A DNA stretch of 54,024 nt, taken from positions 1 to 54,024 of the IMG/VR virus record IMGVR_UViG_3300027741_000087. One strand, given 5' to 3'. The stretch is from a virus. This document shows, piece by piece, positions 19,282 to 37,236 of the stretch (its first letter is position 1; each line of letters begins with the position of its first letter). A model generated the notes under the pieces. It saw nothing but the letters and a program-made list of their open reading frames with translations. It was not told the origin of the DNA and ran no database searches. The translations under genes were made by a program, and so were the position numbers.

Positions 19282-19289
19282 TATAAATA
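19282..19289 (+). promoter_or_regulatory. Late promoter box (TATAAATA) for bS21
   Basis: A perfect TATAAATA lies 20 nt before the ATG of the ribosomal protein gene at 19310. No Shine-Dalgarno sequence is visible in the short leader. Confidence 0.6.
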
Positions 19290-19309
19290 AGATATACACG
19301 TTATTTTTT

Positions 19310-19492
19310 ATGCATATTGTTCACGTTTATAAAGGAGAAGCTATTGACCGTGCCTTAAAGAGACTTAAGGCTAAAATGGATATTGACGACGTATTAGAGG
19401 AAGTTAGGAGTAGAAAGGAATTTGAAACAAATGCGCAAAAGCGTAAACGTAAGCAAAAATCATTAGATAAGAAAAGAAAGCGTAACCGATAA
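19310..19492 (+). CDS. rpsU: Ribosomal protein bS21 homologue
   Basis: This 60-residue protein has the bS21 pattern: a short beta strand (MHIVHVYKGE), then E-x-IDRALKRLKAKM, then VLEEVRSRKEFET, and a highly basic tail (KRKRKQKSLDKKRKRNR). In the 30S subunit bS21 sits beside the 3' end of 16S rRNA near the anti-Shine-Dalgarno region and affects initiation. Phage-borne bS21 is known from marine phages. The gene has its own perfect late promoter box and is followed after 9 nt by a zinc-protease-like gene. I infer that it replaces host bS21 late in infection and changes which mRNAs are chosen. Assignment is by sequence pattern and size. Confidence 0.85.
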   Translation: MHIVHVYKGEAIDRALKRLKAKMDIDDVLEEVRSRKEFETNAQKRKRKQKSLDKKRKRNR

Positions 19493-19501
19493 TTATCTTG
19501 T

Positions 19502-20356
19502 ATGCAAAACTTTAGGCTTTTTACTGAAAAAAAGACCTACACACTATCGTCAAAAGACGAAAAGCAAGTAGAAAAAATTTTACAGAATTATAATGCGTTT
19601 TTTAATCCTGTAACAGTTGGAGATAATCCTGAAAAAAAGCTTTCTAAAAATAAATTATACAATAAAAAAGAAAGAACGTTCTTTCTCGGAACTATAAAAT
19701 ATCACGATCCTATTTTAAATGATGAAGGTATCGTATCTGTTGTTGTTAACTTCGAACCTAATATAAGTGCTCGAGGCGCGTATATACATGATACAAATAC
19801 AATTGAGCTCTTTTATGTGATTTTTAATAATCTATCAGAGAATTTAAAACGAAATACAATTGCTCATGAGCTTTTCCACGCCAAGCAACACTACAGAAAG
19901 ATCTCACCAGAAGCGAGAAGAGCTGTGCATAAACGTACTCTCGATGACGGTGCTGTAACTATTCGCAGTAAGCGCGGGTATTATTTTAGTCAGAATGAAT
20001 TACCCGTACAACTAGCATCAATTGTATATGAACTAGAGCGTCAATATAATCTTATCTTAAAGCATATCAAGACAGGTAAAAACGCTAAGTTCTGGGAACG
20101 TCAACGAGGAAGTTTTTTACAATTATTAGAGCGTTTTTTAAGAGAGCGTTCTATTAAAAATTTCCCCCTACCTAGCTATTTACATGATCAACAAGATTTT
20201 ATTGAAACACTTTTTCGTAATAAAAATAATCCTAAATACGCTAAAACATACAAAAACTTCAAAATAAAGTTACATTTTACATACGATAAGCTGCGTAAAT
20301 TAAAAGCACCTAATATTAATGAACCAGAAATTAAAACTAGCGTATCAAAGTCTTGA
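19502..20356 (+). CDS. HExxH zinc metalloprotease-like protein
   Basis: This 284-residue protein has an HELFH zinc-binding motif at residues 122-126 in the context TIAHELFHAKQH. A Glu about 44 residues later (QNELPVQL) could be the third ligand. The N-terminus MQNFRLFTEKK is loosely like the capsid-targeting peptides of other proteins in this window. The C-terminal half is helical and basic. The start is the first ATG, 9 nt after the bS21 stop. It overlaps the next gene by 38 nt. Substrates are unknown; a head-maturation role or a role in the host cell are both possible. Confidence 0.7.
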   Translation: MQNFRLFTEKKTYTLSSKDEKQVEKILQNYNAFFNPVTVGDNPEKKLSKNKLYNKKERTFFLGTIKYHDPILNDEGIVSVVVNFEPNISARGAYIHDTNTIELFYVIFNNLSENLKRNTIAHELFHAKQHYRKISPEARRAVHKRTLDDGAVTIRSKRGYYFSQNELPVQLASIVYELERQYNLILKHIKTGKNAKFWERQRGSFLQLLERFLRERSIKNFPLPSYLHDQQDFIETLFRNKNNPKYAKTYKNFKIKLHFTYDKLRKLKAPNINEPEIKTSVSKS

Positions 20357-20549
20357 TTGGGTCTATGAGCAGATTAGCGATTTAAACCAGCGCATTAACG
20401 ATTACATCTTCTTTTCAGGGTGCGATATTAAACTCAAATCTGCAGATGTTGTTCAGTTAAAGGCTTTTAGCATTGAATGCGATGAGTTAATGGCGCGTTA
20501 TTTAAAAGACCTTCGAACAATTGAAAAATTAGCTGGTAAAGAAGAATAA
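20319..20549 (+). CDS. Small helical protein (76 residues)
   Basis: The protein MNQKLKLAYQSLDWVYEQIS is helical throughout, with one short polar turn containing SGCDIKLKSAD, and probably forms a coiled coil. It overlaps the protease gene by 38 nt in another frame. There is no later ATG in frame, so the overlap is probably real. No family is recognised. Confidence 0.55.
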   Translation: MNQKLKLAYQSLDWVYEQISDLNQRINDYIFFSGCDIKLKSADVVQLKAFSIECDELMARYLKDLRTIEKLAGKEE

Positions 20550-20568
20550 GTGTATCTATTATATAGAG

Positions 20569-20964
20569 ATGCACGGTCAAGAACAGCTGCTCAAATATAA
20601 AAACATTAAAGTGTATCTTGCGCGTTTTATTAATAAAATAACGAGGGAGAGGTTTTTTAAATTTGGTGTCACAGGTAAATATGACGCAGCTAAGCGTTTT
20701 ACAGATAAGGAATACGATCTATGGGACATTAAGATAATGGCAACTGCCTATGGTCCAACCCTTGAAGTACTTGAGCTTGAGCAAGAGCTACTACACCAGT
20801 ATCCGAAGAATTTTTATCTTCCGGAAAAAATAAAAGGAGTTAGAGAGATTTTTAAAATTGAAGCAGAGCTAGAACATGCAACAGTGAATAAAATTATTAC
20901 CTTTATGAAAGAAAGAGGCAATATCTGGTATGATCAGCGAAAAATCCTTGCCTCACATATATAA
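20569..20964 (+). CDS. GIY-YIG/T5orf172-like protein
   Basis: Residues 14-75 fit the core of GIY-YIG-related T5orf172/Mug113-type domains: a first strand (KVYLARF), then FFKFGVTGKYDAAKRF, and a later acidic helix (LELEQELLHQYP) that could supply the metal-binding Glu. In phages such proteins include free-standing homing endonucleases and DNA-processing nucleases. At 131 residues the protein is a minimal domain without an obvious separate DNA-binding region. It lies just before tRNA-Ile. The active-site tyrosines are not clearly the canonical GIY and YIG, so the assignment is moderate. Confidence 0.6.
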   Translation: MHGQEQLLKYKNIKVYLARFINKITRERFFKFGVTGKYDAAKRFTDKEYDLWDIKIMATAYGPTLEVLELEQELLHQYPKNFYLPEKIKGVREIFKIEAELEHATVNKIITFMKERGNIWYDQRKILASHI

Positions 20965-20987
20965 GCCAGTATAATCAGCTTTAATAA

Positions 20988-21079
20988 GCTCCCGTAGTTT
21001 AACAGTAAAACACTAGTCTTATACACTAGAAGTCCTAGATGAGGGCGTGATCCCGGGGCAGAACCGGGCGGGAGTACCA
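20988..21079 (+). tRNA. tRNA-Ile-like (anticodon TAT), long variable region and variant T-loop
   Basis: The acceptor GCTCCCG pairs with CGGGAGT, followed by A and an encoded CCA. The anticodon stem CTAGT/ACTAG has loop CTTATAC, giving TAT. The variable region is about 22 nt, unusual for isoleucine. The T-stem CCCGG/CCGGG has loop GGCAGAA instead of TTCRANY. The fold is convincing, but the identity is less sure. Confidence 0.68.
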
Positions 21080-21091
21080 ATTTCTAAATTA

Positions 21092-21214
21092 GTGAATAAA
21101 AACAATCTCTACCGTGTTTGGACAAATGTATGGAATGGTGAGAGAGTTATAATTATTGCAATTATTTGCTGTATTATTATTTTTATTCTTGAGTGCCTGT
21201 ATCTAAGCTATTAA
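21092..21214 (+). CDS. Tiny membrane protein (40 residues, GTG start)
   Basis: The frame MNKNNLYRVWTNVWNGERVI continues into a strongly hydrophobic stretch (IIAIICCIIIFILECL) and ends after 40 residues. One membrane span is likely, with a polar N-terminus. It starts 13 nt after the tRNA and ends 13 nt before the next gene. There is no homology I recognise, and the GTG start and small size keep confidence moderate. Confidence 0.45.
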   Translation: MNKNNLYRVWTNVWNGERVIIIAIICCIIIFILECLYLSY

Positions 21215-21226
21215 TATAATAGAAGC

Positions 21227-21553
21227 ATGGCAAAACAATATATCCTAAAAGATATCGACGCTAAGGCTAAAGTCTTACAGAAGTCATTTACAAAAGCTCA
21301 CAAAATTATTGAACGTGCTCAAAAACGTGTTTCGCGAACAGGTAAGGATAAGTCTCTTCTTAAAGCAGCCTGTGAACTTGGATATATTTGTAATAACGCT
21401 CCTATTACCAAAGATGGTAACCGCTATGTCAATCCTATGACATCTGGTGATAAGCTATTTCTAGAAGAGATGGGCACGTATAAGTGTATAGAATTTAAAC
21501 AAAATGAATTTTTTGATTGCACTGGCATGCCAGTCTATCTAAAATGGTATTAA
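21227..21553 (+). CDS. Hypothetical protein (108 residues)
   Basis: The protein starts MAKQYILKDIDAKAKVLQKS. It has a basic helical N-terminal half and a C-terminal half with three cysteines and YVNPMTSGDKLFLEEMGTY. No family is recognised. A TATAAT-like sequence lies about 10 nt before the ATG, so a host-type early promoter may sit there, although it would give a very short leader. The gene is followed 14 nt later by tRNA-Leu. Confidence 0.65.
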   Translation: MAKQYILKDIDAKAKVLQKSFTKAHKIIERAQKRVSRTGKDKSLLKAACELGYICNNAPITKDGNRYVNPMTSGDKLFLEEMGTYKCIEFKQNEFFDCTGMPVYLKWY

Positions 21554-21566
21554 CAAATTTAGCTAT

Positions 21567-21642
21567 GGCTGCGTACGCTAACTGGCATCGCGACCTTACT
21601 TAAAATGAGGTGTTTTTGTGGGTTCGACTCCCACCGCAGCTA
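21567..21642 (+). tRNA. tRNA-Leu-like (anticodon TAA) without long variable arm
   Basis: The acceptor GGCTGCG pairs with CGCAGCT, followed by A; no CCA is encoded. The anticodon stem CCTTA/TGAGG has loop CTTAAAA, giving TAA. The T-stem GTGGG/CCCAC and loop TTCGACT are canonical. Only about 7 nt separate the anticodon and T stems, whereas bacterial tRNA-Leu normally has a long variable arm. Confidence 0.72.
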
Positions 21643-21692
21643 GCTAATTACTTAAAACGTGATTAATATTACGGGTTCAGAACAAATAATCT

Positions 21693-21848
21693 ATGACAAC
21701 AAAAAACAACATCGTAAAAGTCTGGGGTGCTACTACTTCAAAAAGTAGTTTTGCTGCCAGAGAACAAAAAGAAACTGCAGCTCGTCGTCGTATGTTCGGT
21801 CAGAAGAGTCGTGCCCAGCGTTCAGACGCTGGAAAGAAGAGGAAATAA
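21693..21848 (+). CDS. Small basic protein A with AQRSDAGKKRK tail
   Basis: This encodes 51 residues, MTTKNNIVKVWGATTSKSSF..., with an Arg/Lys-rich second half ending RAQRSDAGKKRK. The next gene, 1 nt downstream, encodes a second small basic protein with almost the same tail, so this is a tandem pair of diverged paralogues. The charge suggests binding of nucleic acid or of the ribosome. A weak late-like box (AACAAATA) ends 4 nt before the ATG. No family is recognised. Confidence 0.65.
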   Translation: MTTKNNIVKVWGATTSKSSFAAREQKETAARRRMFGQKSRAQRSDAGKKRK

Positions 21849-21849
21849 T

Positions 21850-21987
21850 ATGCCAAAAGGAACTAAAAACGTAATCGTTAAACATTCCAGTAATTCTGGT
21901 AATAAGAGCTTTGCTTCACGTTCGCGTAAGATTGGATTCCATTCCGTTCGCGCGCAACGTAGTGATGCAGGTAAGAAGCGTAAATGA
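21850..21987 (+). CDS. Small basic protein B with AQRSDAGKKRK tail
   Basis: This encodes 45 residues, MPKGTKNVIVKHSSNSGNKS..., ending VRAQRSDAGKKRK. It shares the C-terminal motif and the FA-[AS]-R region with the protein encoded just upstream. Its stop overlaps the ATG of the membrane protein gene at 21984 (ATGA). Retention of the tail in both copies while the N-termini differ suggests that the tail carries the function. Confidence 0.65.
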   Translation: MPKGTKNVIVKHSSNSGNKSFASRSRKIGFHSVRAQRSDAGKKRK

Positions 21988-22160
21988 AGTTAGAACAAAA
22001 CCAAGAGCTGACTTTGTTCCAAGCACTCAAAATGTATCTTGTAATAGGTTGTTTTACTATTATATTACTTGCATTATCGGTGGGTGTCATCTATACACCT
22101 ATAAGAAACTTTATTCGCAATTATAAACCTACTCCGACATCCCAGCTTCATCATACTTAA
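21984..22160 (+). CDS. Single-span membrane protein (58 residues)
   Basis: The protein starts MKLEQNQELTLFQALKMYLV. A membrane span covers about residues 17-39, followed by a basic segment (RNFIRNYKPT) and a polar tail. It overlaps the upstream and downstream genes by 4 nt and 1 nt, so four small genes form one coupled unit (21693-22372). No family is recognised. Confidence 0.65.
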   Translation: MKLEQNQELTLFQALKMYLVIGCFTIILLALSVGVIYTPIRNFIRNYKPTPTSQLHHT

Positions 22161-22372
22161 TGAAAACACATAACCAATATTCCTTTACTATTATGTATAG
22201 TGGAATGGAGTTTAATTGTGAATTAAATGGGTTACAGTTAACCGTGCAATCACGAGGCTTTTTTGAGGAACGAGCCTATAAGAGTCTTAAAAAGTATCTT
22301 GAAGATGAAGGTTTTATTAAAGAATTAGATGAGCAAAAAGGTATTTCTGATAGATATAAAAAATTACTATAA
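22160..22372 (+). CDS. Small protein (70 residues), resembles 29998-30201
   Basis: The protein MKTHNQYSFTIMYSGMEFNC has beta strands in its first half and a helical second half ending YLEDEGFIKELDEQ. The layout and the YL-x-x-EGFI motif resemble the 67-residue protein at 29998-30201, which suggests distant paralogues. The ATG overlaps the previous stop (TAATG). Its function is unknown. Confidence 0.62.
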   Translation: MKTHNQYSFTIMYSGMEFNCELNGLQLTVQSRGFFEERAYKSLKKYLEDEGFIKELDEQKGISDRYKKLL

Positions 22373-22379
22373 AGTCTTT

Positions 22380-22451
22380 GCATCATCCGGCGGATTCCGG
22401 GCAGGAAACTTCTAATTTCTTAAGCCGAAAGTTCGACTCTTTCATGATGCA
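22380..22451 (+). tRNA. tRNA-Arg (anticodon TCT)
   Basis: The acceptor GCATCAT pairs with ATGATGC, followed by A; no CCA is encoded. The anticodon stem GGAAA/TTTCT has loop CTTCTAA, giving TCT. The T-stem GAAAG/CTTTC has loop TTCGACT. Confidence 0.88.
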
Positions 22452-22460
22452 CTATTTTAA

Positions 22461-22543
22461 GCTCGGGTGGTGAAATTGGCAACCACACAGGTTTTAGAGT
22501 CCTGCGCCGAAAAGGCTTGGAGGTTCGAGTCCTCTCCCGAGCA
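22461..22543 (+). tRNA. tRNA-Leu (anticodon TAG)
   Basis: The acceptor GCTCGGG pairs with CCCGAGC, followed by A; no CCA is encoded. The anticodon loop TTTAGAG gives TAG, with one T-T mismatch at the base of the loop. A long class II variable arm and T-loop TTCGAGT are present. Confidence 0.88.
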
Positions 22544-22545
22544 CT

Positions 22546-22962
22546 TTATTTGTGAAGATGTTTGTGTATATCTTGTAAAATAGCTTTTATTTCTGCTCTC
22601 TCGGCAGAAGCTATTTTAAGTTCTTCTAATGCAGATTTATCAAGACGAATATCTTCAACTAATTTTTTAATAACAATATTTGTCTCCTCATCTAAAGCAA
22701 CATCTTTAATAAGGTGTTCTCTATCGCGTTCGGATTGTCGATTAGAGGACATTAGAATAAGAGGGGTAGCATAAGCTGCTTCAAAGGATAGAAACAAATT
22801 AAGAAGAATAAAAGGATAAGGATCAAAATTTACAATCTTATCAACATTAATAAAAATCCATATTAATAAAATAGATGATTGAATGATAATAAATTTCCAA
22901 GAACCGAGAAATGAGGCAATGTTATCTGCTAGATTTATACTAAAGTTCTTAAGCTGTTTCAC
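22546..22962 (-). CDS. DUF1003-family membrane protein
   Basis: This 138-residue protein matches the DUF1003 pattern: LGSWKFIIIQSSILLIWIFIN, then NFDPYPFILLNLFLS, then a second hydrophobic stretch ending PLILMSSNRQSERDR. Two membrane spans cover about residues 20-42 and 48-72, with a charged helical C-terminal region in the cytoplasm. DUF1003 proteins are widespread in bacteria, and their function is not established. It is the only minus-strand gene within a plus-strand tRNA-rich block and may be an acquired host gene. Confidence 0.82.
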   Translation of the reverse strand: MKQLKNFSINLADNIASFLGSWKFIIIQSSILLIWIFINVDKIVNFDPYPFILLNLFLSFEAAYATPLILMSSNRQSERDREHLIKDVALDEETNIVIKKLVEDIRLDKSALEELKIASAERAEIKAILQDIHKHLHK

Positions 22963-23022
22963 TATATATATTTAATTTTATACTTGCTCTCTTCTTTATT
23001 AGCCTATATATTTTAAGAACAG

Positions 23023-23097
23023 GCACGGATAGCTCAGCGGTAGAGTCCTCGGTTTACATCCGAGTTGTCGTGGGTTCGAATCCCTCTCCGTGTACCA
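23023..23097 (+). tRNA. tRNA-Val (anticodon TAC)
   Basis: The acceptor GCACGGA pairs with TCCGTGT, followed by A and an encoded CCA. The anticodon stem CTCGG/CCGAG has loop TTTACAT, giving TAC. The T-loop TTCGAAT is canonical; the T-stem has one mismatch. Confidence 0.92.
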
Positions 23098-23398: not shown

Positions 23399-23406
23399 AA
23401 TAAATA
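23399..23406 (+). promoter_or_regulatory. Late promoter box (AATAAATA), 5 nt before a GTG start
   Basis: AATAAATA ends exactly 5 nt before the GTG at 23412. The sequence around box and start (TAAATAAT, then TGTGCA) nearly matches that of the 945-residue fibre gene. Confidence 0.6.
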
Positions 23407-23411
23407 ATTAT

Positions 23412-23750
23412 GTGCAGTATATTTCTTTAACATATCCACAAACCGCATCACTCCTATTGCAAGGATACAGATATGATAGTCTTTTTAAGGTGTATCTGAG
23501 CTCAGGAAGCATAGTATTTCCGGGTCTAACAGCTATTAATTTCTTTTCTAACAACCATACAGTTTCTGCTGCTTATCCTCCGTTTTCCGGATATGAATAC
23601 CCGTCAAAATACTATAACGTTTTAGATAAGAATAATCTTCAAGTAACGTTAACAAGCTTCAACGCTATAGATCAATTATATGATATAATTATATTCAATT
23701 ACGCAGGATATACAAAATTATCAGATCATGGATTTTTAATAAAAAATTAG
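23412..23750 (+). CDS. Probable structural protein (112 residues, GTG start)
   Basis: The protein MQYISLTYPQTASLLLQGYR is rich in beta strands, Tyr and Ser, like virion proteins. Its first residues and its promoter-to-start layout resemble those of the 945-residue fibre (MQYIDVTLSNRVSLSFLETV), so the two may share an N-terminal module. The GTG start is preferred because it sits 5 nt after a late box; the overlapping ATG at 23410 leads to a stop after six codons. No named family is recognised. Confidence 0.62.
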   Translation: MQYISLTYPQTASLLLQGYRYDSLFKVYLSSGSIVFPGLTAINFFSNNHTVSAAYPPFSGYEYPSKYYNVLDKNNLQVTLTSFNAIDQLYDIIIFNYAGYTKLSDHGFLIKN

Positions 23751-23830
23751 CTGTTAGTTATTTAAAACGCTATAAACCTAATCAACGATAGTTAAATCTT
23801 GTACGAGTATAAAATTTTCAATAGGCTGTG

Positions 23831-23838
23831 AATAAATA
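23831..23838 (+). promoter_or_regulatory. Late promoter box (AATAAATA)
   Basis: AATAAATA ends 7 nt before the ATG at 23846. An upstream GTG in frame at 23828 overlaps the box and is therefore unlikely to be the start. Confidence 0.5.
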
Positions 23839-23845
23839 CCTATAT

Positions 23846-24085: not shown

Positions 24086-24106
24086 AAAGCAGTTGATTTA
24101 AAATAA

Positions 24107-24138
24107 AAAAAAGCGCATACTTAAGTATGCGCTTTTTT
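24107..24138. terminator. Terminator with 14-bp stem and TTAA loop, overlapping a start codon
   Basis: The arms AAAAAAGCGCATAC and GTATGCGCTTTTTT are perfect and joined by TTAA. The ATG of the next gene (24127) lies inside the right arm. The sequence is symmetric, so it could act on both strands. Confidence 0.85.
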
Positions 24139-25492: not shown

Positions 25493-27142
25493 ATGAATAA
25501 GGATATCTATTGGCTTAATAAGGACTCGAGAAAGTTTCTCAGTCGTGGTTACCTTCTCGAAGATGAAACCGCCGAACAACGCATTAGAGACATAGCAGAA
25601 AAAGCTGAACATTATCTTAATCTCCCAGGCTTTGCTGATAAATTTGAAGATTATGTCTCAAAAGGCTGGTACTCACTTTCTAGCCCTATATGGAGCAATT
25701 TCGGTAGAGTTAGAGGTTTACCTATTAGTTGCTTTAACTCTCATGTATCAGACGATATGAACGCAATTCTATACAAGATGGCGGAAGTTGGATATATGTC
25801 AAAAGTCGGTGGCGGTACATCTGGTTATTTTGGAGATATTAGACCAAGAGGAACAGCTATTTCCTCAGGCGGTGAAGCGACCGGTGTCCATCATCAGCTT
25901 ACAGTATTTGAATCATTAACGAATTATATTTCCCAGGGTAATGTTCGCCGTGGCTCGTTTGCAGCTTATCTACCTATCGATCATGGAGACATTGAAGAGT
26001 TTTTGAAGATCCGAGGAGAAGGTGACGATATTCAAAACCTTTCAATCGGTGTTTGTATATCGGATAAATGGATGAAGTCCATGCTTGAGGGGGATAAGGA
26101 AAAACGTCGCATTTGGGGACTTGTTATTAAAAAGCGTTTTGAGTCTGGTTACCCTTATCTTTTCTTTACCGATAACGCTAACAATAACAAGCCTCAAGTT
26201 TATAAGGATAAGAATTATAAGATTAATGCGAGTAATCTTTGCAGTGAAATCTTTCTTCCTTCTAAGGACGATGAATCGTTTGTATGTGATCTTTCTTCAA
26301 TGAATTTGCTTCACTGGGATGAGTGGAAAGATACAGATGCTGTTGAGACGCTTGTATATTTTCTTGATGCGGTCATGACAGAGTTTATTAATAAGACAGA
26401 AGGAATTGAGTTTATTAAGCATGCTCGAAATTTCGCAATCAATCATAGAGCATTAGGTGTAGGTGTTCTTGGATGGCATTCTCTTCTTCAATCAAAGATG
26501 ATCGGGTTTGAGTCAATGCAAGCTAAAATGCTCAATACCCAGATTTGGAAAACAGTTCGTGAACAAGCAGATAGAGCTACAGAAAAGCTTGCTACAGAAT
26601 ACGGTGAACCGTCTGTTCTTAAGGGATACAAGCGTAGAAATACTACAACCCTCGCTGTAGCACCAACCACATCGTCTTCGTTTATTCTTGGACAGGTATC
26701 TCCATCTATTGAACCGCTTGAATCAAATTATTATATCAAAGATTTGGCGAAGGGTAAGTTTACTTATAAAAACCCTTATCTCAAGGAGTTACTCAAATCC
26801 AAGGATAAGAACGACGATGAAACCTGGATGTCTATTCTTAAGCATGGTGGATCGGTTCAGCATTTAAAGTTTCTTTCACAGGAAGAAAAAGATGTCTTTA
26901 AGACATTTGGAGAGATTTCACAAAAGGAAATTATTATTCAGGCTGCCGGTCGTCAAAAATTTATTGATCAAGGTCAATCATTGAATGTGATGATTCCTCA
27001 CGATGTAAAGGCTAAAGATGTAAATGAACTCATTATCTTTGCCTGGGAACAAGGTATTAAGAGTCTTTACTATCAGCGTAGTACCAACCCTGCACAAATG
27101 CTTGTTCGTTCAATCCTTACATGCTCATCTTGCGAGGCATAA
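25493..27142 (+). CDS. nrdA: Ribonucleoside-diphosphate reductase, alpha subunit (class Ia), no ATP cone
   Basis: This 549-residue catalytic subunit carries the redox Cys in LPISCFNS (C80), the N-x-C-x-E active-site motif (SNLCSEI, with C250 and E252), the radical-transfer pair Y526-Y527 (SLYYQRS) and a C-terminal CSSCEA pair for re-reduction. It is about 200 residues shorter than E. coli NrdA because the N-terminal ATP-cone region is missing, so dATP feedback inhibition should be absent. That is common in phage enzymes and fits unlimited dNTP supply. It follows nrdB directly. A late box and the next gene begin at its 3' end. Confidence 0.93.
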   Translation: MNKDIYWLNKDSRKFLSRGYLLEDETAEQRIRDIAEKAEHYLNLPGFADKFEDYVSKGWYSLSSPIWSNFGRVRGLPISCFNSHVSDDMNAILYKMAEVGYMSKVGGGTSGYFGDIRPRGTAISSGGEATGVHHQLTVFESLTNYISQGNVRRGSFAAYLPIDHGDIEEFLKIRGEGDDIQNLSIGVCISDKWMKSMLEGDKEKRRIWGLVIKKRFESGYPYLFFTDNANNNKPQVYKDKNYKINASNLCSEIFLPSKDDESFVCDLSSMNLLHWDEWKDTDAVETLVYFLDAVMTEFINKTEGIEFIKHARNFAINHRALGVGVLGWHSLLQSKMIGFESMQAKMLNTQIWKTVREQADRATEKLATEYGEPSVLKGYKRRNTTTLAVAPTTSSSFILGQVSPSIEPLESNYYIKDLAKGKFTYKNPYLKELLKSKDKNDDETWMSILKHGGSVQHLKFLSQEEKDVFKTFGEISQKEIIIQAAGRQKFIDQGQSLNVMIPHDVKAKDVNELIIFAWEQGIKSLYYQRSTNPAQMLVRSILTCSSCEA

Positions 27143-27145
27143 ATA
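27138..27145 (+). promoter_or_regulatory. Late promoter box (CATAAATA), 5 nt before ATG
   Basis: CATAAATA overlaps the nrdA stop codon and ends exactly 5 nt before the ATG at 27151. This gives a predicted leaderless mRNA. Confidence 0.6.
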
Positions 27146-27919: not shown

Positions 27920-28495
27920 ATGATACGAGATAGAGAAATTGTTTTAGTATTAAATCGCTGTTGGCAGGCTATTGCAACCAAGACCCCTGCAGAAGCGCTT
28001 TCTATGATGTACGCTGATGCTGCTACAGGGTTAGATGTTCGTGGTACAGAGACTATGATACCTTGCAAATGGAGTAATTGGATTACCTTACCGTACGATA
28101 ATAGTTCTTCGTATATTAACACTGTTCGCGGACAAATAAAAATACCAAAAATTATTATTCTCAGTAAATTTGACCGCGTACCGAAGAAGCGTCCAAAATT
28201 CTCCACACGCGCTATTTGGGTGCGTGATGGTGGTGTTTGTCAATATACAAATAGAAAACTAACCCCAAAAGAAGCTAATATCGACCATATTGTCCCCCGT
28301 TCACGGGGTGGTAGGACGGATTGGTTAAATTGCGTAATAACAGATAAGAAAATCAATGCATATAAAGCTAATAGAACACCTGAAGAAGCGAATCTAAAAC
28401 TTATTAGACCTCCTAAGGAACCAGCTGAAATCCCCGTTACTCTTTATATTAAAAATAATCACGGAATTCCGGAATGGGATTTGTTTCTTAAATGA
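27920..28495 (+). CDS. HNH endonuclease-like protein
   Basis: This 191-residue protein has an N-terminal region (VLVLNRCWQAIATKTPAEAL) common to HNH proteins of the McrA-like group. The catalytic core follows: CQYTNRKL, then NIDHIVPRSRGG with D122-H123, then WLNCV and a KKINAYKANRTPEEA helix. One cysteine of the usual zinc knuckle pair is Thr here (CQYT instead of C-x-x-C). It overlaps the dCMP deaminase gene by 4 nt. In phages such proteins may be homing or DNA-processing nucleases; no intron is seen nearby. Confidence 0.8.
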   Translation: MIRDREIVLVLNRCWQAIATKTPAEALSMMYADAATGLDVRGTETMIPCKWSNWITLPYDNSSSYINTVRGQIKIPKIIILSKFDRVPKKRPKFSTRAIWVRDGGVCQYTNRKLTPKEANIDHIVPRSRGGRTDWLNCVITDKKINAYKANRTPEEANLKLIRPPKEPAEIPVTLYIKNNHGIPEWDLFLK

Positions 28496-30894: not shown

Positions 30895-30902
30895 TATTTA
30901 TG
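30895..30902 (-). promoter_or_regulatory. Late-type promoter box (CATAAATA), upstream of a tandem pair
   Basis: CATAAATA on the minus strand overlaps the encoded CCA of tRNA-Ser and lies upstream of the 30-nt repeat, mirroring the arrangement at 15405. Confidence 0.45.
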
Positions 30903-30992
30903 GTAGAGCGTGAGGGATTCGAACCCCCGGTACCTTTAAAGGGTACGATTGTTTAGTAAACAATTTCTTTAAACCAACTCAGACAACGCTCC
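30901..30992 (-). tRNA. tRNA-Ser (anticodon ACT)
   Basis: The acceptor GGAGCGT pairs with ACGCTCT, followed by A and an encoded CCA. The anticodon stem ATTGT/ACAAT has loop TTACTAA, giving ACT. The class II variable arm forms a GTACC/GGTAC stem, and the T-loop TTCGAAT is canonical. An ACT anticodon is unusual; serine AGY codons are normally read by GCT. Confidence 0.85.
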
Positions 30993-31055
30993 TTAAATCG
31001 GTATTTCGTGTATTATAAGTGCCCCAGGTGCTCAATCCAGAGATTTTAGTAAACT

Positions 31056-31541
31056 TTATTTAACCTCGATACTAATATTGTGTACCTCCGGTTTCACAGT
31101 TGGGACCTTAACTCGCAAAAGCCCGTCTGTGTATGTTGATGAAATGTTCTTAACGTCCGTATTATCATTAAGAGTGAAGGACAACTGTCCCTTTCTCTTG
31201 CTGATACCCTTACGATGGAAGACAACTGTCTCATCATGTTCGACCTCTTCCTTATCAACCGCGATCACGAGCTTACCCTCCTTGACCGATACGTTGATAT
31301 TATCCTTCCCAACACCAGCCAATGCTACTTCGATGTAGTAGGTGACTGGATTACCGTCTGGGTCGGTTTCAGATACGATGTTATAAGGATAGACAGCATT
31401 TGGTACGTCAAATGCTTTGTCGAAGTCCTTAAAGACATCACTTAGCCATGTTTCGTTAAACAGTGCCGGGAGATGGCTAAATCCCAAGCCCTGGGCAGGA
31501 ACAAGCCTGCCGACTGTGTATGGTGTTATTTGTGTTGTCAT
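31056..31541 (-). CDS. Hsp20/alpha-crystallin small heat-shock protein
   Basis: This 161-residue protein has an alpha-crystallin domain from about residue 55 to 150: YNIVSETD, then YYIEVALAGVGKDNINVSVK, then GKLVIAVDKEE, and a closing GLLRVKVP with a short I-x-I-like tail (ISIEV). The N-terminal arm contains LFNETWLSDVFKDFDKAFDV, typical of bacterial IbpA types. Hsp20 genes are common in marine T4-like phages and may help assembly or host proteostasis. The leader is about 68 nt long after a perfect late box and has a good Shine-Dalgarno (AAGGAG at 31549-31554), unlike the leaderless-type genes. Confidence 0.92.
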   Translation of the reverse strand: MTTQITPYTVGRLVPAQGLGFSHLPALFNETWLSDVFKDFDKAFDVPNAVYPYNIVSETDPDGNPVTYYIEVALAGVGKDNINVSVKEGKLVIAVDKEEVEHDETVVFHRKGISKRKGQLSFTLNDNTDVKNISSTYTDGLLRVKVPTVKPEVHNISIEVK

Positions 31542-31609
31542 ATGTGTTCTCCTTTATTAAGCGAGTTAATATGTTTGCTTTAGTCTCGGTTTGAGCACCT
31601 GAGCAATAT

Positions 31610-31617
31610 TATTTATA
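31610..31617 (-). promoter_or_regulatory. Late promoter box (TATAAATA) for hsp20
   Basis: A perfect TATAAATA on the minus strand lies 68 nt before the hsp20 ATG. The leader carries an AAGGAG ribosome binding site 7 nt before the ATG. Confidence 0.65.
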
Positions 31618-31628
31618 GCAGCTATTTT

Positions 31629-32315
31629 TTAAAAATCAATATCCTTTTTATATTTTTTAAAAAATGCTTTTAATAAAATCGTTACATCGGTTACACTACA
31701 GAGCTCTGTTTTATTGAATTTAGCTTCAGAGTGTATTGTATCAGCTCCCGTTGTTAAATATGCTTGAATTTCATCCTTAAGTGTTTGCTTACAATATCCA
31801 AGATCGAGTAATACTTTTGATATTTTTTTATAAGCTGTAGGCTTGATTTTATTAATAATATGATTTACCCCATCTCTGTATGTTTTATCTAAACAATATA
31901 GCCCATGACATACTTCATGGTAGATAGTGCTTTTTTCAGCACCACCGCATGCAATTAGATAATAGAGCTCGTTTGTCTTTTCAGATATTGTATCATTAAT
32001 ATCCATGATCGTAAGATCATATTCGTTTATATCCATTAGACGATGTTTATCACTGTAATAAAGATTCTTAATAATATTTCCAGGTATATTAAAACCACAC
32101 CAATGCTCTGGGTATAAAAAACTCTCTTCTTTTCTCTTTTTAACGTAAGTTTTCATTAGATCAAGAAGCCTAAAATGCTTTCCTCGAATTTCCTTATAAG
32201 GAGACTCGTAGAATTCTTGAACTCTACAAAACGTCATTGCTAGGTCATATCTATCTTTTATAGTACATAGATATATTCCAGGGTATATCTTTTTAAGTTT
32301 GTATTTGATATTCAT
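31629..32315 (-). CDS. HExxH metalloprotease-like protein (228 residues)
   Basis: The ATG at 32315 is used; the longer frame would cross the tRNA-Glu gene. A zinc-binding HEVCH motif lies at residues 133-137 (STIYHEVCHGLYCL). An acidic residue about 60 residues later (KDEIQAYLTT) could be the third ligand. The N-terminal 110 residues are Lys/Tyr-rich without a known domain. It is the second HExxH protein in the window, unrelated in sequence to the one at 19502. Substrates are unknown. Confidence 0.68.
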   Translation of the reverse strand: MNIKYKLKKIYPGIYLCTIKDRYDLAMTFCRVQEFYESPYKEIRGKHFRLLDLMKTYVKKRKEESFLYPEHWCGFNIPGNIIKNLYYSDKHRLMDINEYDLTIMDINDTISEKTNELYYLIACGGAEKSTIYHEVCHGLYCLDKTYRDGVNHIINKIKPTAYKKISKVLLDLGYCKQTLKDEIQAYLTTGADTIHSEAKFNKTELCSVTDVTILLKAFFKKYKKDIDF

Positions 32316-32326
32316 TTTAAAAACAG

Positions 32327-32398
32327 CGACCCTATGCAGAATTGAACTGCAGTTCTGCGGATGAAAACCGCATGTCTTAACCACTAGACGATAGGGCC
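32327..32398 (-). tRNA. tRNA-Glu (anticodon TTC)
   Basis: The acceptor GGCCCTA pairs with TAGGGTC, followed by G; no CCA is encoded. The anticodon stem TGCGG/CCGCA has loop TTTTCAT, giving TTC. The T-loop TTCAATT is canonical. Confidence 0.92.
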
Positions 32399-32452
32399 AT
32401 TTAACACTCTGTATCATTACAATATATAGGCTATTTAATTCTATGCAAGAAA

Positions 32453-32480
32453 AAAGGCTCTATCTTAAGATAGAGCCTTT
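32453..32480. terminator. Terminator with 12-bp stem and TTAA loop
   Basis: The arms AAAGGCTCTATC and GATAGAGCCTTT are perfect. It lies 24 nt after the stop of the minus-strand outer-membrane barrel gene. Confidence 0.86.
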
Positions 32481-32504
32481 TCTATTTTTATGTACGTCTC
32501 AGAA

Positions 32505-33152
32505 TTAAAATATCTTCTCAAGAACCATCTCTACACCATTTCCTTGATAGTTCTCACCAAAAGCTGTTATGTAACGCGCTCCAAGTTCAACACCCTTAAC
32601 AATCTCGTAGTTGAGAGCAAACTTAAAGGTATTAACGTATGTATTACCGTAGCTTGCATTGAATGCACTACCGCCATCATAGCGAACCCATGTACTCAAC
32701 TTATCGTTAATCTTATACTTCAAGCGAAGCTGTGACAACCAATACGGAACGTTCAGTGCGGTGGGATCGGTATAGCTATAGCCGTCACCAATACCACCGC
32801 GAACACCAAGTTCCCAGTTTTTCCAGAGCTGCCAGGAATAACGAAGCTTGAACTCAGTATATCCACCGGTCTGTTGATCTGGACCTGTAGTACGAGAAAC
32901 ACCTTGTTCAGCCTCAATATCCCAACCGTTCTTAAAGTCAGTCCCTACAGAAAGAGCCTCGGTATTATTCCACTGATAAGCACTCCATTGTCCGTCAGAC
33001 TTTGATCGCTGATACATACCAGTCCAATGAGGCTCGATTGAGAATTCAATTGGCTCGTTAGTTGTTGTGAGGACTACGTTCTTCGTATCACCGGCGTAAG
33101 CGGTGACAGTAATTAGCATTGTGATAATTGGTATGATGTATTTGTTTTTCAT
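32505..33152 (-). CDS. Outer-membrane beta-barrel (porin-like) protein
   Basis: This 215-residue protein begins with a signal peptide (MKNKYIIPIITMLITVTAYA, cleavage after AYA). The rest alternates amphipathic strands rich in Trp/Tyr/Gly (FKLRYSWQLWKNWELGVRGG, LRLKYKINDKLSTWVRYDGG), with about ten to twelve strands. It ends in EKIF, a C-terminal aromatic residue as needed for BAM-mediated insertion. The size suits small porins or Lom/Ail-like proteins; general layout also recalls KdgM-type porins, but no family is certain. It starts 1 nt after the permease gene stop, so the two form an operon. It could serve transport or surface exclusion. Confidence 0.8.
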   Translation of the reverse strand: MKNKYIIPIITMLITVTAYAGDTKNVVLTTTNEPIEFSIEPHWTGMYQRSKSDGQWSAYQWNNTEALSVGTDFKNGWDIEAEQGVSRTTGPDQQTGGYTEFKLRYSWQLWKNWELGVRGGIGDGYSYTDPTALNVPYWLSQLRLKYKINDKLSTWVRYDGGSAFNASYGNTYVNTFKFALNYEIVKGVELGARYITAFGENYQGNGVEMVLEKIF

Positions 33153-33153
33153 A

Positions 33154-34251
33154 TTATTTGATTAAAAAAGTAAAGATAGCTGCTGTTGAGAGTAAAAGCA
33201 AGACCCAAGTACATAGCGTTGAATAATACGTCCAGAGGCTTGTACCAAAGTACCGCTTACCAATAAGAACACACTCATGGAGGGGTGAAATAAGATAACC
33301 GGCATAATCAAGAGCAAAGAACCAGAGAAGATACTCCTTACCGAAAATTGTACTCATAAGAACGGTAAGGGCGGCGAACTTACCATCCGAACCCATACTA
33401 TAGGATGCAATAAACGTGATAATACTAATAACAATGAACCCGACTGATGTATGCATTGATACACCGAGATTCTTTACTGAGGATTCAATCCATTCATGAT
33501 GCTCTTGCATGTAATCTGATAAAAAGAATACAATACCGATAATCCAAATTGTATTCCAATTAATATAACTATTAAGCTTCTTAAGGTTGAAGTTCTTGGT
33601 AAGAACGAGATAATAAGACATAAGCGCTCCAAAAACTGTAAAAACAGCTAATGGTCCTTCACCGCCTAGAAGGATATACCCAACAATAGCTAAAAGAAAA
33701 GGAACGACATTCTTAAAGAAGCCACCGAGATTAAACTTAGGCTTCTCGACAATTTCAACTTCCTCTTCTTTAACGTTGAACCAAATATAATAACCAATGA
33801 AAAGAGCTGAAACAGCGATTAACGGCCAGATCATTCTAAGCCATGCTGTATAACCAATACTGAAAGCGGCCATCGGTAGAATAACGGGCTTCTCTAACGG
33901 CGACCACATATAGAAGTGATGAGCGGTTAAGAAGTCTACAATACCAAGCTTTTTTCTACTATCGGAATTTTCTTCTTCATGATCAATACAGTTACAGTTT
34001 GATGTCGCCGTATCGAGAATACCGGCAGAAACGGTTGCTCTTCCTTCAATTGGAAGGATACCACTGACAAAGGAAAGCAAAGAAATAACCACGCGGTTAC
34101 TCTTAAACTTTGATTTAAGATAGCCGTAGATATCCTGGAAGATACCGTGTTCCTTAATAGTTCCGGATACAATCATGATTGCAATGAGTACGAACAGATA
34201 TATCTCGTCTTCTAGATATGACCAGTTGACCCAGTCCAGTATATGTTGCAT
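33154..34251 (-). CDS. DUF401-like inner-membrane permease
   Basis: The ATG at 34251 is used because the longer frame would enter tRNA-Trp. The 365-residue protein has about nine or ten membrane spans. Two motifs match DUF401/ion-transporter (IT) superfamily proteins: SGILPIEGRATVSAGILDT near residue 63, and ISPLHECVLIGKRYF near residue 325. A cytoplasmic loop with NCNC, a DHEEE acidic stretch and HHFYMWSP follows the first motif and could bind metal. The substrate is unknown; relatives are annotated as anion or proton-coupled transporters. It lies directly upstream of the outer-membrane barrel gene. A phage-borne transporter pair is unusual. Confidence 0.72.
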   Translation of the reverse strand: MQHILDWVNWSYLEDEIYLFVLIAIMIVSGTIKEHGIFQDIYGYLKSKFKSNRVVISLLSFVSGILPIEGRATVSAGILDTATSNCNCIDHEEENSDSRKKLGIVDFLTAHHFYMWSPLEKPVILPMAAFSIGYTAWLRMIWPLIAVSALFIGYYIWFNVKEEEVEIVEKPKFNLGGFFKNVVPFLLAIVGYILLGGEGPLAVFTVFGALMSYYLVLTKNFNLKKLNSYINWNTIWIIGIVFFLSDYMQEHHEWIESSVKNLGVSMHTSVGFIVISIITFIASYSMGSDGKFAALTVLMSTIFGKEYLLWFFALDYAGYLISPLHECVLIGKRYFGTSLWTYYSTLCTWVLLLLSTAAIFTFLIK

Positions 34252-34298
34252 AAGATTATATTTTATATGCTCAAAAAAAAAAAATCCAACTAGAAAAA

Positions 34299-34373
34299 TG
34301 GCACGCCGGGTAAGAATCGAACTTACTTGGGGCAGTTTTGGAGACTGCTGCACAGCCATTGTACCACCGACGT
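34299..34373 (-). tRNA. tRNA-Trp (anticodon CCA)
   Basis: The acceptor ACGTCGG pairs with CCGGCGT, followed by G and an encoded CCA. The anticodon stem GCAGT/ACTGC has loop CTCCAAA, giving CCA. The T-loop TTCGATT is canonical. Confidence 0.93.
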
Positions 34374-34378
34374 AAAAT

Positions 34379-34452
34379 TGGAGCCCAGTAAGAGAATCGA
34401 ACTCTTGTTTGATGATTACAAATCAACCGTTTTACCATTAAACTAACCGGGC
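34379..34452 (-). tRNA. tRNA-Thr (anticodon TGT)
   Basis: The acceptor GCCCGGT pairs with ACTGGGC, followed by T and an encoded CCA. The anticodon loop TTTGTAA gives TGT; the stem has one mismatch. The T-stem GAGAG-type pairing has loop TTCGATT. It lies 5 nt from tRNA-Trp. Confidence 0.9.
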
Positions 34453-34463
34453 GTTCTAATATT

Positions 34464-34679
34464 TTATATCAAACCAAGACTTTTTCTACCGTTTCCTTTG
34501 TTACGGCCTTTATAATGGTCTGATTGTGAATCACAATTATGGCATATAAGTCTGAGGTTATCAAGCTTATTATTATCGGCACGACCGTTTTTATGATCGA
34601 GCTCCCGTGCCTTGCGGTAATAGATCCTAACTCTATCGTAGCTGCCAATTACACCACACGAGCATGAATTATAAGGCAT
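34464..34679 (-). CDS. Small HNH endonuclease (71 residues)
   Basis: The ATG at 34679 gives MPYNSCSCGVIGSYDRVRIY, so a C-x-C pair starts the zinc knuckle. The core RELDHKNGRADNNKLDNLRL with D-H and N residues, then ICHNCDSQ with C-x-x-C, is a typical compact HNH nuclease of the homing type. The frame is open further upstream, but the longer version adds no domain. It lies 11 nt from tRNA-Thr and next to the two carbonic-anhydrase-like genes, so it may have driven the spread of this cassette. Confidence 0.8.
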   Translation of the reverse strand: MPYNSCSCGVIGSYDRVRIYYRKARELDHKNGRADNNKLDNLRLICHNCDSQSDHYKGRNKGNGRKSLGLI

Positions 34680-34725
34680 GTACAAGCTAAAAGTTAAAAA
34701 AAACAATAGATTATCACTTCTAGGA

Positions 34726-34733
34726 TATAAATA
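34726..34733 (+). promoter_or_regulatory. Late promoter box (TATAAATA) for the LCIB-like pair
   Basis: A perfect TATAAATA lies 22 nt before the ATG at 34756. It is the only promoter-like box seen for the two tandem genes. Confidence 0.65.
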
Positions 34734-34755
34734 CTTAGAGTATTCCTTTAATATA

Positions 34756-35835
34756 ATGAGTGGCAATAGACAAAACTACCTTAGCGATTTGCAACGACAA
34801 GATTTCTCTCGTTCCTCTCGCTTTCCACAGCCCCTACCGTATTACGGACCATATAGCGGTATGAGCTTTAACGAACGCCGCAATAAGCTCGTCCATGAAG
34901 CTATGGTACAATCAGAGATCGAGATGCGATTAATGATGGAGGCTGAAGAGCGTGCGCTTAATGAGCACAGTCAAAGTAGCTTGAGTACAGATGGCGGCGC
35001 GCCACCGGAACAGCAAATCTATTTGAGTGTTGTACGTAATACGTATCCTACAGCTCTTTTATCAGAAACTTTTGGTACAAAGACATTAAACTTTATTCAA
35101 TCAACTTTCGGTTATACACCTTCAAACGTATTAGTAGCTGAGTCAATTTGCTCTGATGACATCAATGCACCTGTTTTTAGTGGTAACCTCGGACAATTCC
35201 CAGATTCAATGACTTTAGCTCTTAATCCGTTCATGGCCGGTGGTATTGGCGGTTACCCTCATACAGGTGTTACAGGGTTAGCGGCTTGGATAAGTCACGT
35301 AACATCAGGTGGTGCGTTATTCCTCTTTAGTGCCCCTCACATCGGTGTATCAACTGACGGTACAATTGGTGCTGTAAAGAGAAGAGGTCAAAACGGTAGA
35401 TTGAATACCTCTTGCGGTGCTGTTAGAGCTGCTATTGATACTGTCTTAGGTGGTTGGACACCAAGCTTGAGCGGTACTTCACCAATCTTCACCGGTGCTT
35501 CTGTATATAATGATTACCAGCAAAATACTTTAACAGGTATTTTATATAATAATCGCGCCACTCTTTCCACCACACCTACCGACAAACAAATGACCGTTGC
35601 GACAGAAATGATTCGTGTTGCTTCTTACAATTGGATTAATGCAAACCTCTCTACAGCATATGCTGCAGTCTCAGGCGGTGTCGGTACACCGGATGTCTAT
35701 TTTGTTACAGGTACAATGATTAATGTCGATGATGGTTACAGTGGATTAACACAAGTAAATACCTTCCAGAAGTTCAGCGCTAACACCGGCTGGACGGACT
35801 ACACTAATAATTACCTCGCAGCTATAACACCATAA
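34756..35835 (+). CDS. LCIB/C-type beta-carbonic-anhydrase-like protein, copy 1
   Basis: The ATG at 34756 follows a late box. Residues 1-85 are a polar, Arg/Gln/Glu-rich extension without known domain. Residues 90-359 match the limiting-CO2-inducible B/C family: NVLVAESICSDDIN (Cys132, Asp134), GGYPHTGVTGLAAWISHV (His181), FSAPHIGVSTDGTIGAVKRR (Arg209/210) and NTSCGAV (Cys220). Cys-His-Cys would bind zinc and an Asp-Arg pair would gate it, as in beta-carbonic anhydrases. All five are present, so activity is plausible. The next gene is a diverged tandem copy. Placement under a late promoter suggests a late or virion-linked role. I know this family from algae and some bacteria. Confidence 0.75.
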   Translation: MSGNRQNYLSDLQRQDFSRSSRFPQPLPYYGPYSGMSFNERRNKLVHEAMVQSEIEMRLMMEAEERALNEHSQSSLSTDGGAPPEQQIYLSVVRNTYPTALLSETFGTKTLNFIQSTFGYTPSNVLVAESICSDDINAPVFSGNLGQFPDSMTLALNPFMAGGIGGYPHTGVTGLAAWISHVTSGGALFLFSAPHIGVSTDGTIGAVKRRGQNGRLNTSCGAVRAAIDTVLGGWTPSLSGTSPIFTGASVYNDYQQNTLTGILYNNRATLSTTPTDKQMTVATEMIRVASYNWINANLSTAYAAVSGGVGTPDVYFVTGTMINVDDGYSGLTQVNTFQKFSANTGWTDYTNNYLAAITP

Positions 35836-35839
35836 TTTT

Positions 35840-36733
35840 ATGCCTATCTCGCAATCTACATATACATCTTTAGTAACAGCTAAGAGCGCTAGCTGGAGTT
35901 CGAATTTTTATAGTCTCTCTACAGCTAAACTTGCAAGTACCTTCGCTAACTACACAGTGAACTTTATTCAAACCCTTTCCGGTTTTTCAGCTTCTAATGT
36001 GCTTATGGCAACATCGATTTGCGCTGATGATGTCTGTGCTCTTTCAGCTTCAGGTAATATAGGTCAATTTCCTCGCGAAGCAATGAAATTTCTCGGGCCC
36101 TTTAGTTCGTCAGGGCTAGCGGGGTATCCGCATTATGGTATTACAGGTGTTTTTGCTTGGGCTACGCATATTACTGATGGTGGCGCGCTCTTTATTCTTG
36201 TTGCTCCTCACATTGGTGTAGCTTCAACTGGAGCTGTAGGTCAGATATATCGCAGAGGCCAAACAGCTCCTTCTAGTACATGCGGTGCTGTCAGTGTGGC
36301 TGTATCAGCTGTAGTAGCTGCAGCGACCCTTCCTCTCTCTAGTTCAAATAATAATAGCTGGTCTGGTGCTAGTTGGCATCCTAACGATTTCCAGCAATGG
36401 ACCTTAACAAAGGAGTTATATCCCTTACGTACTACGTTGTCGAGCGCCACTACAGCAAATCAAATGCTTATTGCCACGAAGACAATTCTCGATGCAGCAT
36501 CAGCTGTAGTTACAAATGTAGTAGTACCGTCTGCTTATAACGCTTATTTCACTGGCGGTTCTACAGTTACAAGTAGAACTACTCCAATCTTCACTTGCTT
36601 TGGTACATTCGTTAATGTTGATGATGGATACCAGGCTTATATAGCTCCCATCGCGTTCAAGAGATATGATGGAGTAACAGGTTGGGTTGATTATACCGCT
36701 AGCTACTTGAGCGGTTTGAATAGCTTAACCTAG
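35840..36733 (+). CDS. LCIB/C-type beta-carbonic-anhydrase-like protein, copy 2
   Basis: This 297-residue tandem paralogue of the previous gene starts 4 nt after its stop. The same motifs occur: NVLMATSICADDVC (Cys61, Asp63), AGYPHYGITGVFAWATHI (His110), LVAPHIGVASTGAVGQIYRR (Arg138/139) and SSTCGAV (Cys148). The N-terminal extension is shorter and replaced by a fibre-like Ser/Ala segment (SLVTAKSASWSSNFYSLSTA), which recalls the tail-fibre repeats of this phage. The stop codon lies at the broken edge of a tRNA-Asp gene, so this end is a recombination junction. Both copies keep the predicted metal ligands, which argues against pseudogenes. Confidence 0.74.
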   Translation: MPISQSTYTSLVTAKSASWSSNFYSLSTAKLASTFANYTVNFIQTLSGFSASNVLMATSICADDVCALSASGNIGQFPREAMKFLGPFSSSGLAGYPHYGITGVFAWATHITDGGALFILVAPHIGVASTGAVGQIYRRGQTAPSSTCGAVSVAVSAVVAAATLPLSSSNNNSWSGASWHPNDFQQWTLTKELYPLRTTLSSATTANQMLIATKTILDAASAVVTNVVVPSAYNAYFTGGSTVTSRTTPIFTCFGTFVNVDDGYQAYIAPIAFKRYDGVTGWVDYTASYLSGLNSLT

Positions 36734-36773
36734 AGTGACAATGCGGTGCTCTAACCAACTGAGCTACAATCCC
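36734..36773 (-). pseudogene. 5' half of a tRNA-Asp (anticodon GTC)
   Basis: The minus strand reads GGGATTGTAGCTCAGTTGG then TTAGAGCACCGCATTGTCAC. This is an acceptor 5' strand, a complete D-arm and an anticodon stem-loop up to anticodon GTC. The 3' half is missing, and the stop codon of the second LCIB-like gene lies directly at the break. Confidence 0.8.
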
Positions 36774-36778
36774 TAAAA

Positions 36779-37222
36779 TGGTGGAGGTGTCGGCATACGA
36801 TAGCCGAGTCCACATCTTTTTCAACTTACACAATCTACATGTTTTGGTAAATTTGAGATTTGATTGACTACAGGCTCTCATGGCTTACCAACCTATCTTT
36901 TTTAGTCTACCTGACATGGTGAAGAGTCCATGCCCACCCTCTACGTTTATTTTACGAGTGTCGTAGATACCACTCTAACCTATTGCGATTCACCGAAAGA
37001 GTTAATAGGATTACTTTCGGTTCTTATGCTGCGAGAAGGTACTCTTCCTCAACACCACCGAGAAACTCGGCAGCATTGTTGAAGATGTATTCAGCTTCAG
37101 CTAAGATAGCATCAGTATTATCTTCTGCATTTATCTTTTAGTCTATTTTTAAAGTGTACCGTCTTAGACCAACCACTACATGCAGTGTAGTATCCAACTA
37201 TGTGTCGAATCCTTTCACCCCC
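36779..37222 (-). ncRNA. ssrA: Phage tmRNA (ssrA) with long tag
   Basis: The 5' end GGGGGTGAAAGGATTCGAC has the conserved tmRNA start, and GGGGGTG pairs with CACCTCC before A-CCA at the 3' end. Internally, a resume codon GCA opens a frame of 34 codons that starts AEDNTDAI and ends EEEYLLAA, then TAA (37128 down to 37024). The LAA end is the usual protease signal. The T-arm-like stem TCGGC/GCCGA closes an 8-nt loop that lacks the canonical TTC. tmRNA rescues stalled ribosomes and tags the products for degradation. A GATAAATA box ends 6 nt before the 5' end, so it is probably a late transcript. The tag is far longer than the common ~10 residues. Confidence 0.9.
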
Positions 37223-37228
37223 AAAAAT

Positions 37229-37236
37229 TATTTATC
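37229..37236 (-). promoter_or_regulatory. Late promoter box (GATAAATA) for tmRNA
   Basis: GATAAATA on the minus strand ends 6 nt before the predicted 5' end of the tmRNA, almost exactly the spacing expected for a T4-type late start site. Confidence 0.65.

Follow-up and report, generated by a model that had tools for sequence, protein, structure and literature searches.

How a phage might bend translation in the infected cell towards its own messages is the question raised by the virus record IMGVR_UViG_3300027741_000087, a 54-kb stretch of DNA (the window, all 54,024 nucleotides of it) that is probably a fragment, and in which a gene for ribosomal protein bS21, a complete transfer-messenger RNA (tmRNA) gene and a group of tRNA genes occur together with late-type promoter boxes placed very close to start codons. 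The best explanation, to which a probability of about 0.72 is given as a whole, is that the window would come from a lineage of uncultured T4-like phages marked by two traits of translation, leaderless-type late genes and a tmRNA of its own, bS21 being probably an accessory of some members that the leaderless layout does not need. No claim is made that this is the first report of leaderless late genes. New in this analysis is a tmRNA encoding a conserved 34-residue tag, which the preliminary description of the locus had missed, as it had the peptidase gene next to bS21.

Two protein scans seeking relatives of the window gave no match, and a search with its Hsp20 gene, which the relatives share, then yielded the family; isolated phages searched by near-DNA similarity, bS21, tag and tmRNA gave no useful match. 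Gene starts were taken where homologues back them, first in a set of 423 and later in a non-redundant set of 1,015 from the window and related T4-like phages. Independently of this homology-based start calling, an annotation-free start caller was applied to three large relatives (G004, G036 and G034) and to T4 as a control. The window fragment itself holds fibre, ribonucleotide reductase, Hsp20 and tRNA genes; the T4 core block is not in it. Membership of the T4-like phages is read from the three large relatives, in which homologues of T4 gp55, gp17, gp18, gp20, gp21, gp23, gp25 and gp43 were found, comprising the structural block with terminase, portal, capsid and sheath, the polymerase and the late sigma factor.

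T4 late transcription, with its gp55 sigma factor and TATAAATA promoters (PMC2988020), is among the nearest known systems, the lineage having the same box besides the gp55 and structural homologues. Nine gene starts in the window lie 4-7 nucleotides (nt) behind a NATAAATA box:

602..609, minus strand: AATAAATA box, spacer of 7 nt to the ATG at 594
14917..14924, minus strand: TATAAATA box, spacer of 5 nt to the GTG at 14911
15174..15181, plus strand: TATAAATA box, spacer of 7 nt to the ATG at 15189
15458..15465, plus strand: TATAAATA box, spacer of 4 nt to the ATG at 15470
17372..17379, plus strand: CATAAATA box, spacer of 5 nt to the ATG at 17385
23399..23406, plus strand: AATAAATA box, spacer of 5 nt to the GTG at 23412
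23831..23838, plus strand: AATAAATA box, spacer of 7 nt to the ATG at 23846
27138..27145, plus strand: CATAAATA box overlapping the end of the ribonucleotide reductase gene, spacer of 5 nt to a conserved ATG at 27151, with equal spacing in the nearest relative, G001
38930..38937, minus strand: TATAAATA box, spacer of 6 nt to the ATG at 38923

The number of such boxes is unremarkable, TATAAATA being seen 14 times in the whole window against 12 expected, so that only their position counts as non-random. The close placement of box and start, already claimed in the preliminary description for spacings of 4-7 nt, extends to the family: the boxes peak at 3-7 nt before the start in the first set of 423 and, among the 1,015 starts, 82 of the 151 NATAAATA boxes leave a spacer of 3-8 nt to the start codon (binomial p 2e-43), with ATAAATA as the strongest 7-mer ahead of starts (93 occurrences against 7.3 expected). 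With the annotation-free caller the same spacing was obtained for 21/45 boxes in G004, 23/41 in G036 and 16/28 in G034 (60/114 in total), against 0/17 in T4. Annotated T4 starts lie 12-35 nt behind their boxes and have a Shine-Dalgarno (SD) motif in 35 of 59 cases, whereas the lineage has 3-8 nt and no SD. Two control phages, P-HM1 and P-SSM2, have few boxes, with one at 5 nt in each.

Since late RNA in T4 begins about a helical turn past the box (PMC2988020), boxes ending 3-8 nt before start codons lead to the prediction that the late mRNAs are leaderless. A gp55-type sigma factor would read T4-type late promoters placed mostly 5-7 nt before the start codon, and the late mRNA would begin at or within about 2 nt of that codon and would be translated leaderless, without SD pairing. 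An independent hint of the transcription start site comes from those tmRNA genes that have a close box, in which the box ends 4-6 nt before the mature 5' end.

The SD-free starts claimed for the late genes proved to be a wider property. SD motifs precede 58 of 1020 family gene starts, against 60 and 61 at control offsets, which is background; their absence is thus genome-wide, neither specific to late genes nor confined to those that follow bS21, and 'late only' is somewhat too narrow. A few exceptions are found, namely strong conserved SDs at Hsp20 (31541, minus strand; retained in 28 of 37 relatives) and at a 64-residue open reading frame (41438, minus strand), and a weaker AAGGGG-type SD at 17575 (plus strand). 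Because the first two are strong and conserved, SD pairing is apparently still usable, which suggests that it works in the infected cell. The SD of the 64-residue frame (41244-41438, minus strand) is an extended one, AGGAGGTGA, conserved in G001. The Hsp20 leader (31542-31617, minus strand) is itself conserved, with a late box about 68 nt upstream; in it CTCGCTT could pair to the SD AAGGAG and CATAT to the start codon, and the predicted fold is stable (z −3.3), SD and AUG both lying in paired regions. A likeness to an RNA thermometer may be suggested from this folding; RNAalifold gave no pairs on the leader alignment, by consensus structure or covariation, and no Rfam family matched the leader. 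In distant relatives (L045, L049, L050, L051 and L053) the Hsp20 leader is another conserved element, GTCCTAGTGCACAATTACGTGGCTAGCACA, without SD.

The second trait is formed by three features:

36779..37222, minus strand: complete one-piece tmRNA (RF00023), 444 nt, with encoded 3' CCA and the G3-U70 alanine identity pair
37229..37236, minus strand: GATAAATA box, ending 6 nt before the mature tmRNA 5' G
37024..37128, minus strand: tmRNA tag frame AEDNTDAILAEAEYIFNNAAEFLGGVEEEYLLAA plus stop, 34 residues by translation, conserved in relatives and under selection

As the preliminary description had it, the tmRNA is complete and has a late box: the match covers the full RF00023 model (positions 1-374; 86.4 bits against a gathering threshold of 47, E 3e-32), and the box-before-tmRNA layout recurs in L109, L111, L113, L114, L116 and others. 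In the acceptor stem 5' GGGGGUG pairs with CACCUCC, followed by ACCA; by virtue of the G3-U70 pair and the encoded CCA, the molecule should be charged with alanine. From its sequence it appears to retain the features needed for ribosome rescue, which supports that part of the preliminary description. SmpB was found in none of 26 records, so that the host protein is presumed to serve; with it, the chargeable one-piece tmRNA of the phage would rescue stalled ribosomes. In almost every phage tmRNA (L105-L119, L194-L273) an element of the type G[AT]TCTTTGA also precedes the mature 5' end at a short distance, whether a late box is present or not. It was weighed as a possible −7 box of the Bacteroidota type; a −33 partner was not seen, and one of the tmRNAs directly follows a tRNA.

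The tag frame opens at the resume codon GCA and runs for 34 codons to a stop, ending in LLAA, the hydrophobic degron end of tmRNA tags. Its length is atypical, although length does not define the family: the commonest tag in a database of 97,179 sequences has 10 residues (PMC11915505). Full RF00023 matches above the cut-off occur in 15 of 44 relatives, where the tags have 33-35 residues and fall into three sequence types. A scan with the type-1 tag brought up related tags in at least 99 viral contigs, of which 78 read complete with 32-35 residues, nearly all ending in LAA, MAA or similar. The ratio of non-synonymous to synonymous polymorphism (pN/pS) in the tag frame is 0.195 in the set selected by peptide patterns; in eight tmRNAs found without tag bias it is 0.31, whereas the two remaining frames give 1.1 and 2.8. 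AlphaFold2 predicts a helix at tag residues 5-17 (predicted local distance difference test, pLDDT, approx. 90). Thus the tmRNA would add a tag of about 34 residues consisting of a conserved, predicted-helical segment and then an -LAA-type degradation end. Capture of the tag from a bacterial tmRNA of the sampled genomes was rejected, as the core peptide was found in none of their tmRNAs: across 84,980 genomes of bacteria and archaea it gave 24 matches, each within an ordinary protein frame, and 0/395 and 0/398 in the genomes of two phyla, where the positive control was good. Complete ssrA genes are also carried by mycobacteriophages and phage G (PMC4131195) and, in two pieces, by Melnitz (PMC9004378); the tmRNA of the lineage differs in being one-piece with a conserved tag of 32-35 residues.

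bS21 and its immediate neighbourhood comprise three features:

19282..19289, plus strand: TATAAATA late-type box upstream of bS21, an exact match, ending 20 nt before the ATG
19310..19492, plus strand: ribosomal protein bS21, 60 residues (PF01165, E 1.9e-12; TIGR00030)
19502..20356, plus strand: putative zinc metallopeptidase directly after bS21, with HELFH and a conserved NE downstream (sub-threshold DUF6782)

The protein scores above curated cut-offs across the domain (PF01165, 47.1 bits against 27; TIGR00030, 45.3 against 28.95). The perfect late box attributed to the gene is present, though with its distance of 20 nt bS21 itself is not of the leaderless type; its leader has no SD either, and in G001 bS21 follows the upstream gene without any box. 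Of the records of relatives, 12 in a set of 44 and 3 in a further set of 19 yielded the gene, 15 of 63 in all, and bacterial genomes scanned for it gave none. The phage bS21 proteins form one clade outside 11 sampled Bacteroidota sequences and nearer to Alphaproteobacteria-type ones, in a tree of few columns and arbitrary midpoint root that does not settle the host. Large myovirus-type Bacteroidetes phages with bS21 and many tRNAs have been described by Chen 2022 (PMC9723584); their bS21 retains an aromatic residue at position 54 and its gene is surrounded by structural genes, whereas the bS21 of the window, aligned with bacterial bS21, has no aromatic residue at the Tyr54 position of Bacteroidia and is located among tRNA genes with the peptidase behind it. 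It thus departs from the Bacteroidetes type, also in its lack of affinity to Bacteroidota bS21.

A HExxH gene directly follows bS21 in six distinct relatives, the window included; the motif is in all six proteins, and the downstream NE is conserved in the four that were aligned. The match to Pfam DUF6782 reaches 22.4 bits, below the cut-off of 27, and the AlphaFold2 model (pLDDT 60) is too weak to use and gave no fold match. Paired with bS21 in this way, the putative peptidase might remove host bS21 or another ribosomal target.

Eleven tRNA genes are recognized, ten by ARAGORN and the one at 20988-21076 by Rfam:

17176..23097, plus strand: tRNA genes Ser 17176, Gly 18727, unnamed 20988, Leu 21566, Arg 22380, Leu 22461 and Val 23023
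30901..34452, minus strand: tRNA genes Ser 30901, Glu 32326, Trp 34299 and Thr 34379

Twelve had been counted; the twelfth candidate (approx. 17279-17351) is recognized by neither program and does not fold as a tRNA. The 5' half of a truncated tRNA-Asp (GUC) lies right behind the tmRNA (approx. 36730-36772, minus strand), cut where the second of two adjacent LCIB/C-type beta carbonic anhydrase genes ends, possibly as an insertion scar. These two genes (34678-36733, plus strand; PF18599, E 6e-34 and 8e-33), are unexpected in a phage, and no counterpart was seen among the G001 orthologues. A DUF401/CitMHS-type membrane protein (33154-34359, minus strand) is 95% identical in G001, above most other proteins the two phages share, and a small protein (27920-28495, plus strand) matches the Cas9d/IscB HNH nuclease region.

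Several points weigh against the proposed combination of leaderless-type late genes and a phage tmRNA. Roughly one box in two falls outside 3-8 nt, and the majority of gene starts lack a NATAAATA box altogether, these genes being perhaps in operons or using other promoters; in G034 only 2 of 6 boxes are at 3-8 nt in the comparative set, though the annotation-free caller gave 16 of 28. Box spacing, missing SDs, an intact tmRNA, a conserved tag and the gene neighbourhoods are read directly from sequence and form a strong pattern; transcription starts, leaderless initiation (predicted from box spacing), tag function and the peptidase target are inferred, and the tag frame comes from comparison of sequences. 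The relatives are mostly fragments, so that absences of bS21 and SmpB are soft. Finally, the layout is not unique to the lineage. In the Pelagibacter phage HTVC008M (L311, L313), which is likewise T4-like and encodes bS21 and Hsp20, 8 of 20 boxes fall at 5-8 nt; unlike in the lineage, the spacing there is bimodal, the remaining boxes being at 18-61 nt, with long leaders of which most have an SD, and SD motifs are frequent among its starts in general (26/61 and 29/58) where the lineage is almost SD-free.

Among the other explanations, the one that survives best, possible if rather unlikely, holds that the SD-free starts mirror a host that hardly uses SD, as in Bacteroidota, and that phage bS21 mimics the host protein with nothing being redirected. 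The best Protein Data Bank match of the window bS21 is 9i5v, which looks like a bS21 of the Bacteroidota type, and the background level of SD motifs throughout the genome is as expected from such a host. That published bS21 phages infect Bacteroidetes (PMC9723584) points in the same direction. Yet the bS21 of the lineage, with its separate clade and without the aromatic residue of the phages of Chen, does not look the part, the conserved SDs at Hsp20 and the 64-residue frame imply usable pairing, and a host that does without SD would not alone put promoters on start codons.

A more far-reaching proposal is that the lineage rebuilt translation, joining leaderless late messages to a phage-specific functional 34-residue helical tag, serving e.g. 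as a decoy or to hand proteins to a selected protease or adaptor, and in some members to a bS21-peptidase pair that swaps host bS21 for that of the phage. Taken jointly, this is speculative and we hold it to be unlikely.

Replacement of host bS21 with redirection of ribosomes has been proposed by Mizuno 2019 (PMC6375957) and Chen 2022 (PMC9723584), and in the preliminary description phage bS21 would draw ribosomes away from SD-led host messages to phage mRNAs that are leaderless or lack an SD, while the tmRNA clears the resulting stalls. That bS21 is real and recurs in the family, that HTVC008M combines it with a set of leaderless-type starts, that phage bS21 can enter Escherichia coli ribosomes, where it cuts translation of a green fluorescent protein reporter to about 5% (PMC6375957), and that Flavobacterium johnsoniae ribosomes without bS21 alter their SD preference (PMC9976891) all speak for such a switch. 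In F. johnsoniae, however, it is strong-SD messages that gain when bS21 is lost, contrary to the direction of the model (PMC9976891). The Flavobacterium system of bS21 autoregulation and anti-SD sequestration (PMC9976891) is similar in having bS21 near the anti-SD; here no host link is shown. Moreover, the leaderless layout is present in relatives with no bS21 found, including the 227-kb G034, the gene itself being in 15/63 records, the absence of SD is not specific to late genes, and the box of bS21 is distant and not conserved. The switch is the weakest part of the original finding, and improbable.

Still less probable is that the boxes belong to AT-rich, unstructured initiation regions rather than promoters, or that start codons were miscalled. 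The upstream regions are AT-rich and many genes have no box; against this stand a specific 8-mer with a sharp spacing unlike that of T4, the arrangement CATAAATA/GATAAATA-ATTCT-ATG kept in the window and in G001 at the start of a 94% identical protein, the same box at tmRNA 5' ends, and the presence of gp55. That RNA structure alone accounts for the 34-residue frame, and that the real tag is shorter or lies in another frame, is very improbable, for although the frame traverses the helix-5 region of the RF00023 model, where ordinary tmRNA tags usually stop, purifying selection is found in the tag frame only, and nearly all 78 complete tags have LAA/MAA-like ends within a range of only 32-35 residues.

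A phage tmRNA tag conserved as a long peptide departs from the norm of approximately 10 residues and raises the role of the extra 24 residues in ribosome rescue. With the bS21-peptidase pair, the phage protease acting on host bS21 about which McNutt 2023 (PMC9976891) only speculated gains a concrete candidate. With late promoters of one class apparently fused to the start codons of many phages, leaderless initiation in infected cells can be tested genome-wide.

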